Below, piece after piece: positions 4,306 through 55,064 of a stretch of 62,160 bases of DNA (its first letter is position 1; each line of letters begins with the position of its first letter). A program made the position numbers and the translations under genes. The notes under the pieces were generated by a model. It saw only the letters and a program-made list of their open reading frames with translations, was not told where the DNA came from and did no database searches. The stretch is from positions 18,899 through 81,058 of the IMG/VR virus record IMGVR_UViG_3300030450_003709; one strand, given 5' to 3'. This stretch comes from a virus.

Positions 4306-5132
4306 TGGCAATAACGCTAACGGATCAGGAATACTTCGAGGACAAGACCCAATGGGGCCAGTCACAATACATAACACTTGGGCAGATAATAGACAACATC
4401 CTATTGACCGCCGATGACGATAGTTATTTCAAACACGCCAAGAGGTTCAGGTTGTCCATATTCGGGAAACAATGCCTGAAACGATTGAAGGTGGATCTGA
4501 AATTATCGGATAAAGCCTTTAGTTTCCAATTGGGGCCAGAGAGAATATTCCCATATCCCAAGTACATGACCAACTGGCACAGGGTATCGGTATATAACAA
4601 GTGCAAGAAACTATCCCCTTTGAAGATAAACACAAGCGAAAGGATAAACGACTATTTGCAGGACAGCGAATACAGGCTTCTCTATGATAATGATGGGAAC
4701 GTATTGCAAGGGAATTATTTTGATGCCCAAAAGGGACATTGTTGTTTGGAGGTCGATCCATGTATAACAATAACACCATGTGGTTGTACGGAAGAGGACT
4801 TTTCCAAGAGTTGGGTAAAGCCAGTCAATAAGGCGGGCTATTTTGAGTTCAGCAACGATTTGGTGGACAGGGTAATCATCGTGGAATATGAAACAGCAGG
4901 ACTTGACGAGATAGACGATTGTGACGTAAAAGTCCATACAGATTTGGAACTTACCGTACAAAACTGGATAAAATGGCAGTTTTTGTTAGGGAAAAGGAAC
5001 ACCCCAAGGACAGAGGCAGATTATTTCAGACAACTCTATAAGATTGAAAAGGAACGTTCCAGAAGTCTTTTGACCGATAAGATCTCCATAGAACAGATCA
5101 TCAACATTGTATCAATGCGTTATAATAACTAA
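4305..5132 (+). CDS. Probable connector/tail ring protein
   Basis: 275 residues. No catalytic motif; contains a cysteine-rich stretch (CCLEVDPCITITPCGC) near the middle that could bind metal or form a tight turn. Start overlaps the preceding stop and the stop overlaps the next start (TAATG at 5130-5134), marking a co-translated trio 3610-4305-5132. In short-tailed phages the pair before the large tail-nozzle protein usually forms the collar rings; that is the inference here. Confidence 0.68.
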   Translation: MAITLTDQEYFEDKTQWGQSQYITLGQIIDNILLTADDDSYFKHAKRFRLSIFGKQCLKRLKVDLKLSDKAFSFQLGPERIFPYPKYMTNWHRVSVYNKCKKLSPLKINTSERINDYLQDSEYRLLYDNDGNVLQGNYFDAQKGHCCLEVDPCITITPCGCTEEDFSKSWVKPVNKAGYFEFSNDLVDRVIIVEYETAGLDEIDDCDVKVHTDLELTVQNWIKWQFLLGKRNTPRTEADYFRQLYKIEKERSRSLLTDKISIEQIINIVSMRYNN

Positions 5133-8100
5133 TGCCAAGAATAAAGAATATATTTGCCGAGGGCAAGATGGACAAGGAGAGCAGCCCTGCTTATGTACAA
5201 CAGGGTTTCCACCGTCATGCCGAGAACCTTATATTTAGGGGCAATAGCGGTGACGATGGTGAGGCCAAGAACATCAAGGGCAGCGAACTATTGTCCGATG
5301 CCACTGGTGGCAATACAGACTTCAAGTGTATATGCGCCTATTTCAACAACGATAAGGACTGTATATATTATTATCTGGCCACTTCCGCAAGGATGTTGAG
5401 CAAGGTCATTGAATACGACATCATCAACGAAACGACCACACAGTTGTTGAACGATACCAACGGGGTATTGCGCTTTGCCAAGAACGGCTATATAACTGGT
5501 GTCAATGAGATAAACGGGCTTTTATATTGGTCGGAATGGGAGAACAACCCAAGGATGATAAACATCGAAAGGGCAAAGACCTATGGGACGAACGGCTTTA
5601 CCGAGGACGATATAAAGGTCATCAAAAGACCACCTGTACAGAAGCTTCGCACCACGTTACAGAATACGGTGTTCAACTCACAGCAGGAGAACTTCATCGA
5701 GGACATCATGATACATTTCTCCTATCGATGGAGATACCTTGATGGGGAATACAGCGCACTTGCACCGTTTACCAACCCACAGTTCTACCCAAGGACTTTC
5801 AACTACGACTATTCCGAGCAGTCCAACAAGAGCATGGTCAACAGGTATAACCAAGTGCTTTTGGAGTTTGACACAGGCGACCACAGGGTTGCCGAGATAC
5901 AGCTTGTATGGAAGGAAAGTGGTAGCAAAAACGCTTGGATAATCGATGATTTCGATAAGGCAAAATTAGGCTATGCCGACAATGCCATAGAATCCTTTGC
6001 ATTTGACAACAGTAAGACAAAACAAGCACTCCCACAAGAGGTTTTGAAGCATTATTACGATAATGTTCCCAGATGGTCAAAATCACAGTTCATCATCAAC
6101 AGAAGGCTTTTCTACGGGAACAACTTGGAGAACTACAACCTATTGGACGAGAACAATGCGCCGATAGAGATAGACTATGAACTAGAGCTTGTCTCAACGG
6201 ACAATACCGAACTATCTGGGGGCGAAACGGTTCCAACTTTTGTTCCAAAGAACACAGCAAAGAGCAATAGGGACTATGAGGTGGGGATGGTCTATATCGA
6301 TGAAGATGGAAGGATGACAACCGTGCTCAACTCCAAACTCAACACACTCTACATCGAAGCGAGCAAGAGCATAGCCGAGAACAAGATAAAAGTGGTATTG
6401 GCGCACAAACCTCCATATTGGGCAAAATATTTCAGGTTCTTCATAAGACAGAACAAAAAGGGCTATGACCAATTATTGCCAGTAGTTTTTTATCGTGATG
6501 GTGTATATGCTTGGTTGAAGATAGAAGGCAATGATGCCGATAAGTTGAAGATAGGGGAATTTCTGATTGTAAAATCAGACACATCCGGGCCGTTGTCCAC
6601 GTTGGTAAAGACAAGGATATTGGAAATCGTTGAACAGGATGAAAACTTTTTGGAATCCGAGGTTCCAGACCCTTATGAGGTTAGACAGAGAAAGGGAACA
6701 TATGTAAAGGTAAAGACATCCAATTTTAGCCTCAACCCAAATGCCGTTCAAATTTATGACAGTACCGGAGGTGGTTTTAGGTCATCGGCAACATCAAACA
6801 ATATTGGAAATAACCAGACTTATGTTGAAGACCCGATATATTATAACTTCAACGGTCTTAACGATGTTAATATAACAGGTACTTATTCAAATGCAGATGA
6901 TATTAGATATGAAATTGAAGTATTCACACAAGGAACACCGGACACATTCAGATGGAGAGAATTTAATGTAGTAACAGATACGGTAGGTGTGTGGAACGAC
7001 AACGGTGGATTGGGAATAAACATTACAGGTTCGGCACAGGCATTGTCAAATGGATTATCAGTAACATTTGGTGCAACAACTGGTCATGATATAGATGATA
7101 GGTGGGTCGTAAGCGCAAAATCATTGACAAGGGCAGCATCGTGGAACGAGAACAGTAGCGCACCTCCTGGAAGTTTTGGCAGAAGGGCCATTGTCATGTA
7201 CATGGGCAAACCAATTTCAACGGGAGAGGGAATCCGTGGTGGAGCGCAGATAACCATAAGATATGACGATGATGGTTCAGATGCAGGGGCAGACGGACAG
7301 TTGCCAGCATTCGAGGACAATTTCACATCCACACAGGACTATGCCAATATCGAGGAATGGTTTTATGGTGACAACATAATCTCCCAATTGACATATCCAA
7401 ACACATTGGATAGGGTAATGTTCAGAAGGGGTACTTTTACAAAAGTAGTGGACGGACAGCCACAGATAACAAGTATTGACCCTACTAAAAACATGGTCAT
7501 GTTGTTTATGTCCTCCGCACATTATTCTGGTGGAGAATCCATAAGGGTAGTGGCAAGCATAAATATTACTGAACTAGACAACAGTATTATTTTGGAGACA
7601 GAACCGACACGCCAACAGGAAGATCTCTATTTTGAGATAGGCAAGACCTATAAGACCGTACAGAGTGGTGGCAAGGCAACCTATCATTCAGCCGTTACGA
7701 ATGACTTCGGTACAGAACTGCCCAATACGGCGGGTGACGTTTCACAGGACGGCTCAAACGACTTGGAAGTCACCTTGGACTGGTTCAACGCATTTTGTTA
7801 TGGAAATGGAATAGAGAGTTACAAGGTGCTTGATGCATTGACTGGAAAGGGAACGGATGTCGGACAGCGTTCATTGACCAACCTACTTGACGAATATAAG
7901 GAAACACATAGAACGACAGGAATATCATGGAGTGATGTCTATGACGATGAAACGGGCTTCAACGGGCTTAGCACGTTCAATCTTTCGCTTATAAACTTCA
8001 TAGACCTTGACAAGGAAAACGGTTCCATACAGAAGATGCACGTACTCAATGGTGACCTACTGGTACTCCAAGAGGATGCCGTAGGTATATTGCCAGTCAA

Positions 8101-9130
8101 TAAGAACATCATAACCGATGCACAGGGGAACGATGTGGTTGGGATTTCCACCAATGTGCTTGACCAAAGGAGTTACAGACCGTATGCAAGCGGTAGATTT
8201 GGCATTTCAAAGAACCCGGAGACATTTGTACAGTCTGGTTCACGGAACTACTTTACCGACCAACAACGTGGAGTTCTGATTAGATTGGCTAATGATGGGA
8301 TAACCACCATAGACCAATACTATCTAAGGAGATATTTTTCAGACCAGATGTTGGCGCACAAAAATTCCGTCATGATAGCAGGGTTTGACACCACAAGGGA
8401 TGAATATCTATTATATCTGCCGTTGCTAAACCAGACATTGGCATTCAAGGAGGATATAAACGGTTTTCCTAATTTCTATACATGGCAACCAGACTTTATA
8501 TTGAACGCCAACAACGTGCTTTATGTATGGAGGCAGGGCAAGATGTACAGGATGTACACAAACGAGGTTCATAACAACTTCTTCGGGGTGCAGTATGAGA
8601 GCAGGCTAAAGTTCTATTTCAACCAAGAGTTCAGTACGGAGAAGGTATGGAAGGCACTTTCATTGGAAGGAAGCCATCCTTGGAAGGCAATCATCAAGAC
8701 TGGACTTACGGGGAGGACTATCGAAAAGACGGATTTCGTACAGAAAGAGGACTATTGGTATGTGGAGATAATGGGTAATACCAATGATGATATAAAGGCG
8801 AGCAAGATTCTTGGATTGGGTGAATTTGCCATTACGGGCGGTGAGATATTGACCACTAGACGACCACCATCCATGTCCATAGGGGATTCGATAATAAGCA
8901 GCACATTGCCCTTTGCAGCTAATGTAATAACCGATATTACAGCAGATAGGATAATATTACAGGACAATATTACCGTAGCAAGTTCGTTCTTGATGTACAA
9001 GAAGAACCAGACGGTTGACGGGAACAGCATCAGGGGGGATATTTTGGAGGTGGAACTTATCAATGACGATACGGAAGAGGTTACATTGAGGTGTGCAAAT
9101 GCAGAATTTACGAAAAGTTTTTATAGTTAA
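5132..9130 (+). CDS. Large tail 'stabilisation/muzzle'-type protein
   Basis: 1332 residues. The N-terminus (GKMDKESSPAYVQQGFHR, then AENLIFRGN and EAKNIKGSE) follows the pattern of the crAss-like tail stabilisation/muzzle family, where a G.mN.D...v..G.YrdA.N beginning is followed by a G...NI.G turn. Long beta-rich repeats fit a tail-nozzle protein of the T7 gp12/P22 gp10 type. No signal peptide. A more AT-rich block at about 6720-7150 (residues about 530-670) probably encodes a variable surface domain. The gene is followed by a 430-bp gap with structured RNA candidates. Confidence 0.8.
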   Translation: MPRIKNIFAEGKMDKESSPAYVQQGFHRHAENLIFRGNSGDDGEAKNIKGSELLSDATGGNTDFKCICAYFNNDKDCIYYYLATSARMLSKVIEYDIINETTTQLLNDTNGVLRFAKNGYITGVNEINGLLYWSEWENNPRMINIERAKTYGTNGFTEDDIKVIKRPPVQKLRTTLQNTVFNSQQENFIEDIMIHFSYRWRYLDGEYSALAPFTNPQFYPRTFNYDYSEQSNKSMVNRYNQVLLEFDTGDHRVAEIQLVWKESGSKNAWIIDDFDKAKLGYADNAIESFAFDNSKTKQALPQEVLKHYYDNVPRWSKSQFIINRRLFYGNNLENYNLLDENNAPIEIDYELELVSTDNTELSGGETVPTFVPKNTAKSNRDYEVGMVYIDEDGRMTTVLNSKLNTLYIEASKSIAENKIKVVLAHKPPYWAKYFRFFIRQNKKGYDQLLPVVFYRDGVYAWLKIEGNDADKLKIGEFLIVKSDTSGPLSTLVKTRILEIVEQDENFLESEVPDPYEVRQRKGTYVKVKTSNFSLNPNAVQIYDSTGGGFRSSATSNNIGNNQTYVEDPIYYNFNGLNDVNITGTYSNADDIRYEIEVFTQGTPDTFRWREFNVVTDTVGVWNDNGGLGINITGSAQALSNGLSVTFGATTGHDIDDRWVVSAKSLTRAASWNENSSAPPGSFGRRAIVMYMGKPISTGEGIRGGAQITIRYDDDGSDAGADGQLPAFEDNFTSTQDYANIEEWFYGDNIISQLTYPNTLDRVMFRRGTFTKVVDGQPQITSIDPTKNMVMLFMSSAHYSGGESIRVVASINITELDNSIILETEPTRQQEDLYFEIGKTYKTVQSGGKATYHSAVTNDFGTELPNTAGDVSQDGSNDLEVTLDWFNAFCYGNGIESYKVLDALTGKGTDVGQRSLTNLLDEYKETHRTTGISWSDVYDDETGFNGLSTFNLSLINFIDLDKENGSIQKMHVLNGDLLVLQEDAVGILPVNKNIITDAQGNDVVGISTNVLDQRSYRPYASGRFGISKNPETFVQSGSRNYFTDQQRGVLIRLANDGITTIDQYYLRRYFSDQMLAHKNSVMIAGFDTTRDEYLLYLPLLNQTLAFKEDINGFPNFYTWQPDFILNANNVLYVWRQGKMYRMYTNEVHNNFFGVQYESRLKFYFNQEFSTEKVWKALSLEGSHPWKAIIKTGLTGRTIEKTDFVQKEDYWYVEIMGNTNDDIKASKILGLGEFAITGGEILTTRRPPSMSIGDSIISSTLPFAANVITDITADRIILQDNITVASSFLMYKKNQTVDGNSIRGDILEVELINDDTEEVTLRCANAEFTKSFYS

Positions 9131-9141
9131 ACGAAAAGGCA

Positions 9142-9149
9142 TACATTTG
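9142..9149 (+). promoter_or_regulatory. -7 promoter element for the small RNA
   Basis: TACATTTG fits TAnnTTTG. Initiation about 6-8 nt downstream would place the RNA 5' end right at the first hairpin (9157). No clear -33 TTG at the usual distance, only a T-rich stretch inside the end of the preceding gene. Confidence 0.5.
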
Positions 9150-9154
9150 TAATC

Positions 9155-9258
9155 AAGAACTTGTCGGAGAAGTTCAGGAAAAAATATTAAAGATGTGGTG
9201 CCAGTCTCCACAATATATCGACCCTAAGACAACTCCGACAAGTCTTAGGGTCTTTTTT
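9155..9258 (+). ncRNA. Candidate structured small RNA with two mutually complementary hairpin loops
   Basis: Three hairpins can be read directly. H1: GAACTT (9157-9162) with AAGTTC (9170-9175), loop GTCGGAG. H2: TGTGG (9194-9198) with CCACA (9208-9212). H3: an 11-bp perfect stem, GACCCTAAGAC (9220-9230) with GTCTTAGGGTC (9242-9252), loop AACTCCGACAA, then a T run 9253-9258, so H3 is also the terminator. The H1 loop GTCGGAG is exactly complementary to CTCCGAC (9233-9239) in the H3 loop, and the complement extends to 11 nt (9159-9169 with 9233-9243). This is a kissing-loop or alternative-fold arrangement. There is no open frame of note. No known RNA family is recognised. The H3 terminator could also act as an attenuator for the gene at 9561. 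Confidence 0.7.
9220..9258 (+). terminator. Strong terminator forming the 3' hairpin of the small RNA
   Basis: Perfect 11-bp stem 9220-9230/9242-9252, 11-nt loop, six T. It lies 90 nt after the end of the 1332-residue tail gene, so it probably also ends that message. Confidence 0.92.
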
Positions 9259-9295
9259 ATTCGTCCATTGACACGGTTCGGAAAGACCTTTAAAA

Positions 9296-9350
9296 CCTAG
9301 TAAAATGGGATATTATCAAACTAGGATGCCAATGCGAAATAGGGATGGCA
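9296..9350 (+). other. Non-coding stretch with two short hairpins
   Basis: CCTAG (9296-9300) pairs with CTAGG (9321-9325), and TGCC (9327-9330) with GGCA (9347-9350). These directly precede the three-way-junction RNA and may be part of the same transcript. No coding potential seen. Confidence 0.3.
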
Positions 9351-9375
9351 GATAATGAATCACCGATAGAGGATT

Positions 9376-9476
9376 AAGCCCTAAACTTTTGCTGAACGGT
9401 TAAAGCAAAAGACCTAAAAGAACTCAAAACTCAGTTGAACTGAAGAAGTTTTAGGTATATGCAAGTCTTAGGGCTT
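9376..9476 (+). ncRNA. Candidate three-way-junction RNA in the leader of the 9561 gene
   Basis: All pairs are perfect Watson-Crick. Closing helix AAGCCCTAA (9376-9384) with TTAGGGCTT (9468-9476). Inside it, hairpin a CTTTTGC (9386-9392) with GCAAAAG (9405-9411), and immediately abutting hairpin b ACCTAAAA (9412-9419) with TTTTAGGT (9449-9456), capped by TCAGT/ACTGA (9431-9435/9439-9443). Helices a and b touch with no unpaired base, which favours stacking; 11 nt join b to the closing helix. The 12-mer CAAGTCTTAGGG occurs here (9462-9473) and in the terminator of the upstream RNA (9239-9250). No D, anticodon and T arms, so not a tRNA. It may be a leader controlling the 9561 gene or an independent RNA. 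Confidence 0.55.
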
Positions 9477-9560
9477 GCTATACCCGTTAGAATCTAAAAT
9501 CTAGTTACCTGAAGTAAGTTTTATATTAAGTATTATAAAGAGGTAAATAAAAAAAATATC

Positions 9561-9857
9561 ATGGAAAAAACAGTCTATCTATTGTTCGTCGGAAAAATGT
9601 TCGATGAAATAGGAGAGGAAAGAACAATCGAAATTTTAAAGGAATGTATGGAAGAACTGTCTGATACAACCACGAAAAGAGATATAGATTATAACGACCA
9701 GATTAATTTAAGCGCACAGGATTGGTTGGACAGTAAAAAAGAATTTAAATGTTCAAGTTGTGGAAGGATAAGTATTTCGGTCGCAAATGGGCATATAGAT
9801 AAAATGACACAGCCAAACGGAAAACCTTGTGGTGGTGTATTCAGACCAAACAGATAA
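9561..9857 (+). CDS. Small protein with a possible zinc-binding CxxC motif
   Basis: 98 residues. N-terminal helical part, then CSSCG (about residues 64-68) and a lone cysteine in GKPCGG near the C-terminus, suggesting an incomplete zinc ribbon. No recognised family. No TAnnTTTG promoter was found between 9477 and 9560, so it may depend on read-through of the terminator at 9220-9258 and on the structured leader before it. A purine-rich AAAGAGG lies about 15 nt upstream of the ATG. Converges with the minus-strand gene ending at 9872. Confidence 0.7.
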   Translation: MEKTVYLLFVGKMFDEIGEERTIEILKECMEELSDTTTKRDIDYNDQINLSAQDWLDSKKEFKCSSCGRISISVANGHIDKMTQPNGKPCGGVFRPNR

Positions 9858-9871
9858 GTTCCTCTGAATTT

Positions 9872-10300
9872 TTACTGGTTATCGACATAAATCATTTCTT
9901 GACAGTTCTTACTTCCATATAAGAAACCACATTCGTTTAAAGATTCAATAAGGTTTTTCTTGCCTTCCCAAATATTGGTATAAATAAGTTTTGCTCCCAT
10001 CTGCTTGCACATATAAATTAATCCTGTTATAAGAAATTTAAGGGCTTCATCCCTAATTTGTCTATCTTTCACTTTATATGTCGAAACAATGAACTCAACC
10101 TTAAATAATTTGCTTGCGGAAGTAGTGTATATGAACCCTGCACAAATATTTTCCCCGTCCTTTGATACCATAAGCCCACTTGAAAAGTCGTCTGGGAGCA
10201 TTATCCTAACGGGAGGTGTGAACTTATGCCATTTCCACCAATCCACCAATTCTACATAATCGGCCTCTTCCGTGTTCCTTACATCGAATTTGTTTTCCAT
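9872..10300 (-). CDS. GNAT-like N-acetyltransferase
   Basis: 142 residues from ATG at 10300. A longer frame reaches 10336, but the promoter-like element at 10305-10312 lies inside it. The fold pattern is GNAT-like: an N-terminal strand-helix (FDVRNTEEADYVELVDWW), central strands containing ICAGFIYTTSAS and FKVEFIVS, a helix, then LIYTNIWEG.KNLIESLNECGF near the C-terminus, matching the usual GNAT motif B. The motif A pyrophosphate loop is weak (KVKDRQIRDEAL), so activity is uncertain. It is a lone minus-strand gene within the late plus-strand cluster, divergent from the 10383 gene. Substrate unknown. Confidence 0.68.
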   Translation of the reverse strand: MENKFDVRNTEEADYVELVDWWKWHKFTPPVRIMLPDDFSSGLMVSKDGENICAGFIYTTSASKLFKVEFIVSTYKVKDRQIRDEALKFLITGLIYMCKQMGAKLIYTNIWEGKKNLIESLNECGFLYGSKNCQEMIYVDNQ

Positions 10301-49448: not shown

Positions 49449-49477
49449 ACATGAAAATATACTTAAACTAAAAAACC

Positions 49478-49516
49478 TCCCTCCGCTTTGGGCGTGTCAT
49501 TCGATTGAGAGAGGGA
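49478..49516 (+). promoter_or_regulatory. Structured leader before the 49544 gene
   Basis: TCCCTC (49478-49483) pairs with GAGGGA (49511-49516). Its 3' part, TTCGATT..AGAGGG.ACTAAC, is shared with the leader at 52478-52540, so the two are related elements. Confidence 0.5.
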
Positions 49517-49543
49517 ACTAACAAACACTAAAATTATATTATC

Positions 49544-51506: not shown

Positions 51507-51523
51507 TGTTTGGTTTGTTGTTT

Positions 51524-51552
51524 CCCCGGTTCCTTCTTTTCACGGGCCGGGG
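51524..51552 (+). promoter_or_regulatory. GC-rich intergenic hairpin
   Basis: CCCCGG (51524-51529) pairs with CCGGGG (51547-51552), followed only by TTTAAC. Too few T for a strong terminator; more like a leader or processing hairpin before the 51585 gene. Confidence 0.5.
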
Positions 51553-51584
51553 TTTAACAGACCGACCAAGATAAAAAAACTATC

Positions 51585-52468: not shown

Positions 52469-52477
52469 AAACAAAGC

Positions 52478-52540
52478 CTTTGCGAGGTGCGCCCCTAAAA
52501 TAATACGGGGTTTGGGTTCGATTCCAAAGAGGGTACTAAC
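52478..52540 (+). promoter_or_regulatory. Structured leader with a T-arm-like hairpin
   Basis: CTTTG (52478-52482) with CAAAG (52525-52529); CCCC (52492-52495) with GGGG (52507-52510); TTTGG (52511-52515) with CCAAA (52524-52528) around GTTCGATT, so pairings compete. Shares TTCGATT...AGAGGG.ACTAAC with the leader at 49478-49525. Confidence 0.5.
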
Positions 52541-52556
52541 TTAAAAACTAGAAATA

Positions 52557-54984: not shown

Positions 54985-55004
54985 AAATCAGTTTGGTTGG
55001 TTGC

Positions 55005-55034
55005 GCCATCCGAAAGCTAAGCGAGTAGGATGGC
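55005..55034 (+). promoter_or_regulatory. Intergenic hairpin before the 55065 gene
   Basis: GCCATCC (55005-55011) pairs perfectly with GGATGGC (55028-55034). No U tract follows, so it is not a standard terminator. Followed by AACACTAAAA, as in the leader at 49478-49516. Confidence 0.5.
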
Positions 55035-55064
55035 ATCCACCGAACACTAAAACTTTAAACAAAA

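Follow-up and report, generated by a model that had tools for sequence, protein, structure and literature searches.

A candidate RNA switch or small RNA with complementary hairpin loops downstream of the muzzle gene of a crAss-like phage

Directly downstream of the muzzle gene of a crAss-like phage, we describe a predicted RNA of about 105 nt in which the loops of a 5' hairpin (H1) and of an intrinsic terminator hairpin (H3) are complementary. From its sequence, it appears to be a single-copy element with well-defined limits, and a good candidate for an RNA switch or a small RNA of this phage rather than a proven system. The pairing between the terminator loop and the 5' end of the RNA is probably functional in some way. 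The specific reading that we favor over a stand-alone or multimeric small RNA is a folding switch that would decide termination, with the kissing loops as its locked OFF form; this reading is put forward tentatively, as possible rather than probable.

The window (the whole stretch of DNA analyzed, 62,160 nt) is part of a virus record of 81,058 bp. Directly upstream of the candidate, positions 5132-9130 encode a muzzle protein of the crAss-like phage type (Pfam crAss_MUZ, E 1e-20). It shares 46% identity with its counterpart in Tenacibaculum phage Gundel_1 (Pachyviridae) and 36% with those in Cellulophaga phages phi38:1 and Calle_1; the nearest IMG/VR contig found shared 63% of the portal sequence. 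Given these relationships, the phage is assigned to the flavobacterial crAss-like phages, and its host is most likely a flavobacterium. The gap at 9131-9560 (430 nt) is non-coding, ranks third by length in the record and second in the window, and lies in an accessory slot flanked by two structural genes. A small cargo gene on the minus strand (9872-10300) belongs to PHROG 17252 (unknown function) and is acetyltransferase-like by eye only; relatives L021 and L024 carry it at the equivalent position (46-49% identity), with different adjoining cargo.

The first-pass annotation had described H1, H3, both loops and an 11-nt complement between them, and all of these were found exactly where it had placed them (Table 1). 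The complement is perfect (9159-9169 with 9233-9243): seven bases match loop to loop, nine lie inside the H3 loop, and the outer bases fall in both stems. Both GTCGGAG and CTCCGAC occur once in the window. H3 has the makeup of an intrinsic terminator, as six of its stem pairs are G-C and TTTTTT follows. A 35-codon open reading frame (9193-9300, MWCQSPQY...) crosses H3, with an A-rich start region of the flavobacterial type and a start codon overlapping H2. Leader-peptide attenuation through this frame was considered as a possibility and set aside, since its length is unremarkable and its start lies inside H2.

Table 1. Coordinates of the features of the candidate RNA and of the neighboring gene
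Feature	Position	Strand	Basis or description
-7 box TACATTTG, flavobacterial sigma-A type (TAnnTTTG)	9142..9149	+	enrichment before phage genes
Predicted short transcript, promoter to terminator	9154..9258	+	start 12 nt past box beginning, end in T run
Alternative long-range helix, 5' strand (AAG-a-ACTTGTCGGAG)	9155..9169	+	complement and forced fold
H1, 5' hairpin GAACTT-GTCGGAG-AAGTTC	9157..9175	+	6 bp, loop GTCGGAG 9163-9169
H2, small hairpin TGTGG-TGCCAGTCT-CCACA in the H1/H3 interval	9194..9212	+	weak, z -0.49 for 9176-9219
H3, intrinsic terminator hairpin	9220..9252	+	11 bp, 11-nt loop AACTCCGACAA 9231-9241
Alternative helix, 3' strand CTCCGACAAGTCTT	9233..9246	+	H3 loop and first five bases of H3 3' arm
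Terminator T run TTTTTT	9253..9258	+	sequence
98-aa accessory gene with zinc-ribbon-like CxxC...C pattern, possible readthrough target	9561..9857	+	open reading frame

The TAnnTTTG element expected to start the RNA just before H1 is real. The motif corresponds to the -7 box found in sigma-A promoters of flavobacteria, which in Flavobacterium occupies positions -12 to -5 (PMC9723704). Fourteen of the 39 plus-strand boxes fall in non-coding DNA, which makes up 9% of the sequence (p=3.8e-6), and the intergenic boxes lie mostly 23-55 nt upstream of a start codon; the 9142 box is one of only two on the plus strand located more than 150 nt from the next gene. Placing this box at -12 to -5 predicts that the RNA starts at 9154/9155 and that H1 follows two or three bases later; this start, together with H3 and the T run, outlines a promoter-to-terminator unit of about 105 nt. 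Folding of 9150-9258 gave a z of -3.42. Transcription from the 9142 box is presumed from the letters of the DNA, and it is at this sequence level that the earlier proposal of a small RNA running from promoter to terminator with complementary loops is supported.

With three further pairs, the 11-nt complement grows to a match of 14 bp that links the very start of the RNA with the 3' arm of H3. These pairs join AAG (9155-9157) to CUU (9244-9246), with a one-base bulge between them and the complement, and this alternative helix begins right at the predicted start. The predicted energies, which are computed without pseudoknots and leave kissing out, are -29.2 kcal/mol for the fold with H1, H2 and H3 and -27.0/-27.1 kcal/mol for the long-range helix fold when the 11-nt complement is forced to pair. 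Since the 14-bp match enters the 3' arm of H3, the two folds are exclusive and of near-equal energy, and the alternative helix breaks the terminator. The long-range helix is the lowest-energy fold for nascent RNAs from 9236 onward and reaches a predicted probability near 1 in those that end at 9240-9251; the terminator fold wins once base 9252 emerges (0.59, rising to 0.92 by 9258). Leaving H1 while H3 has yet to form is predicted to meet a barrier of about 9.8 kcal/mol, and the barriers after completion of either final fold are 26-28 kcal/mol. These barriers suggest that the choice of fold would be made while the polymerase passes over the terminator and would then be fixed. The 7-bp loop-loop duplex, estimated alone at about -12.9 kcal/mol, would further stabilize the state with H1 and H3; the predicted ensemble leaves the H3 loop more than 90% unpaired, and intramolecular kissing appears sterically plausible.

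The first-pass annotation had also raised the possibility that the RNA switches folds and controls the terminator for gene 9561. Of the three functions it offered, fold switching at the terminator gained support from the models, with two exclusive folds within about 2 kcal/mol and a helix that reaches the 3' arm of H3; transcription, the switch itself, the kissing contact, the opening of H1 and gene 9561 as the target are what we infer. Under the proposed mechanism, the promoter would start the RNA at 9154/9155, and its first bases would either fold as H1 or pair (9155-9169) with 9233-9246. Where H1 holds, H3 would form and transcription would stop near 9258; the exposed H1 loop would then kiss the H3 loop, locking the terminated state, and an RNA of about 105 nt would be released. 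Where H1 opens, the 14-bp helix would form once the H3 loop emerges and block H3, and the polymerase would read on through a 300-nt structured leader into gene 9561.

The extension of the complement into the 3' arm of H3, which a pure kissing design does not need, argues for such a switch within the fold models. Against it, a competing fold is expected wherever 11 nt complementary to a terminator loop overlap a hairpin, and the extra 3 bp carry a bulge and come cheap. Furthermore, with a predicted barrier of 9.8 kcal/mol, H1 may persist and H3 may always terminate, and the arrangement is known from a single sequence. As for the putative target, gene 9561 starts 300 nt past H3, no TAnnTTTG box was found for it between 9259 and 9560, and its product matched no family above the cut-off in PHROGs, Pfam, PADLOC or NCBIfam. 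Since many genes of this phage have no TAnnTTTG box, 9561 could be transcribed from a different class of promoter. A second structured non-coding stretch lies at 9370-9486 (z -3.58, 0 of 200 shuffles; no Rfam match above the cut-off). It contains a 12-nt copy of CAAGTCTTAGGG from the 3' side of H3 (9239-9250 and 9462-9473), and its loop could pair with the 5' arm of H3.

Coincidence is a serious rival to the switch, and we allow it a substantial, although minority, probability: H3 would be an ordinary terminator for the structural-gene operon that closes with the muzzle gene, and both the complement and the hairpin upstream would have arisen by chance and be idle. In keeping with it, L022, L034 and Gundel_1 (L011/L033) have a strong terminator 3' of the muzzle gene, and L035 has a terminator-like hairpin there, all four without a partner hairpin. 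Descriptor scans of about 100 related loci found no other terminator with the same architecture, and box-before-terminator pairs in relatives occur at about the chance rate (a rough estimate of our own) and without the complement. By our own estimate, the chance of a TAnnTTTG box in a 90-nt AT-rich gap is a few per cent. L022 does have a box and a terminator at the same place; its complement is weak, G-U-rich and seen by eye, and it was not counted.

The frequency of such arrangements was assessed in 600 dinucleotide-preserving shuffles, each scanned for a terminator hairpin and an upstream hairpin with a loop matching the terminator loop. A loop-loop match of at least 7 appeared in 7 of the 600, and one of these had at least five G/C; a match of at least 8 appeared in none. 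In a smaller run under the same rules, 1 of 12 shuffles had a loop-loop match of 8. The chance of such an arrangement is therefore roughly 1 in 600 windows or less, and this matters once many windows are scanned: an arrangement of this kind is unlikely in a single window, yet to be expected somewhere in a large search. What weighs against coincidence is that three independent features meet here, namely, an 11-nt complement containing G+C, a hairpin presenting exactly that stretch, and a box that would start the RNA there. None of the 600 shuffles had a total complement of at least 11, in agreement with the earlier remark that a chance match was improbable, and in none was a kissing pair preceded by a TAnnTTTG box. 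Likewise, among 395 terminator-like hairpins (about 1.4 Mb, nearly all from crAss-like loci), a G+C-containing match this long together with a hairpin was found only here, and the remaining matches of 9-10 in a looser scan of about 100 related loci were A+T-rich.

Searches for homologues were consistent with a single occurrence. In L021 and L024, the slot opens with an ORF of 181-185 aa followed by the same minus-strand gene as 9872-10300; as other relatives have the terminator without a partner hairpin, the RNA sits where relatives carry other cargo or nothing. A decayed copy of the relatives' slot ORF was considered, and no trace of one was found in 9131-9560. No homologue of 9100-9560 was recovered from phages by blastn, and low-stringency blastn of the gap against all loci returned chance matches only, one of them a 17-nt stretch within a gene of the nearest relative. 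In IMG/VR, the exact H1 pattern had 8 matches, none with an H3 partner, and the paired pattern had none. A search for the exact H3 loop and arm gave 2 matches, which lie inside a coding frame. The paired pattern had 34 matches in 84,980 prokaryote genomes, and those examined were coding or contiguous palindromes. In line with the first reading, which recognized no known RNA family, a search of 9000-9700 against Rfam 15 gave no match at the gathering threshold and, at a relaxed one, only two microRNA matches of chance level.

After the switch, the next best functional reading is a stand-alone late small RNA, which we consider unlikely. Here, H1 and H3 would kiss within one molecule, making it compact and exonuclease-resistant, and it would act in trans on a host or phage RNA or protein. 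The promoter-to-terminator unit with its strong fold, the energy of the loop-loop duplex and a 44-nt linker long enough for a stack of about 24 bp (our own estimate) are compatible with this possibility. However, the complement is larger than the loops, no homologue was found, and no significant trans target was detected among the phage translation starts, the best match to the H1 loop being a tRNA. Separately, a phage-encoded tRNA-Met (L018 1690-1763) has a T arm (AACTCCGA) that is similar to the H3 loop, with the potential to pair with the H1 loop; this is probably chance.

Assembly between molecules, with H1 of one RNA joined to H3 of another in dimers, chains or rings, is very unlikely. 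The loops are complementary and the H3 loop is predicted to be largely open, so pairing in cis or in trans is conceivable. However, with so long a linker the intramolecular contact should win at ordinary RNA concentrations, no Rfam family of this kind was matched, the RNA has no pRNA-like closed 5'/3' helix, and the locus adjoins the muzzle gene. The initial comparison with pRNA and ring-forming phage RNAs gained no positive support beyond self-complementarity. Finally, a DNA element, either a REP-like repeat or an invertible segment with short inverted repeats, is the least probable reading of all. In its favor, the core CTTGTCGGAG/CTCCGACAAG also makes intergenic palindromes in genomes of Cytophaga and Hymenobacter. 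These, however, are long uninterrupted stems that lack H1 and a terminator; no tyrosine or serine recombinase was matched in the phage, and the element is single copy in the window. A repeated Cytophaga palindrome, CTTGTCGGAGACCCAAGG...CCTTGGGAACTCCGACAAGGGCG, is intergenic (L103 3197-3418, L110 2774-2842, L114 181-250, L115 5855-5927, L121 83-603), reaches three copies within 600 bp and is REP-like; related GAGCTTGTCGGAGC palindromes occur in Hymenobacter (L116, L123, L126, L129).

To our knowledge, few studies have addressed the non-coding RNAs of crAss-like phages, and what is known of late transcription in these phages comes mainly from gene order. At 105 nt, the predicted RNA, which has a promoter and a terminator of its own and two predicted exclusive folds, is short enough to be tested in a single in vitro transcription experiment. 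If the folding switch is real, a terminator loop can be the docking site for its own antiterminator, and the RNA could act as a genetic on/off switch. Elsewhere, the longest non-coding gap of the phage (48216-48927, 712 nt) holds repeats around GAGTATTTGTAAA and a TG-rich tract, and is possibly a replication origin or control region. Short G+C-rich hairpins lie directly 5' of several small genes without a TAnnTTTG box (49450-49543, 51507-51584, 52469-52556 and 54985-55064); the one at 52469-52556 resembles the 3' half of a tRNA (GGTTCGATTCC), for which ARAGORN and Rfam make no call.

Among known systems, type III toxin-antitoxin loci (ToxIN, AbiQ) consist of a promoter, a structured RNA, a terminator and then a gene, an order also seen here. 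This candidate was rejected: there are no tandem RNA repeats before the terminator, the 98-aa product of 9561 matches no toxin in the databases named above, and the distance from terminator to gene is 300 nt. Like phi29 pRNA and ring-forming phage RNAs, the candidate is of phage origin and has two mutually complementary loops in one RNA. In contrast to them, it has no closed end helix, one of the partners is a terminator hairpin, and its complement of 7-11 nt allows pairing in cis; there is no sequence or structure match, and the covariance models of pRNA, ROOL, GOLLD and OLE (Rfam 15, gathering and relaxed thresholds) gave none at 9000-9700. Rfp18 is an independent flavobacterial sRNA, host-encoded and conserved in its genus (PMC9723704). 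It shares with the candidate a short independent RNA, a flavobacterial promoter and a strong predicted fold of several hairpins, whereas the phage RNA is single copy and has self-complementary loops.

The closest functional analogue appears to be the antiterminator/terminator pair of transcription attenuators, such as riboswitch and ribosomal-protein leaders (PMC2965389, PMC4538822). As in these, there is a 5' leader, an intrinsic terminator, an exclusive long-range helix that would block it, and a 5' hairpin that would sequester the antiterminator strand; a promoter with a start before the 5' element can be read from the DNA, and the antiterminator is of comparable predicted stability (-27.1 versus -29.2 kcal/mol). 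Unlike attenuators, the phage RNA has no known ligand domain and no known relatives, and its gene lies 300 nt downstream. The phage antiterminator also differs in its target, which is the loop of the terminator together with the start of the 3' arm rather than the 5' arm; for such a helix, loop-loop contact would be a natural first step of capture. A bolder and quite improbable extension would make the terminator loop a sensor, whereby the nascent 5' end captures the loop and invades the 3' arm; the kissing complex and the antiterminator would then be two ends of one pathway, and the RNA would represent a new class of self-sensing attenuator, or one whose same contact, made in trans, chains RNAs into multimers.
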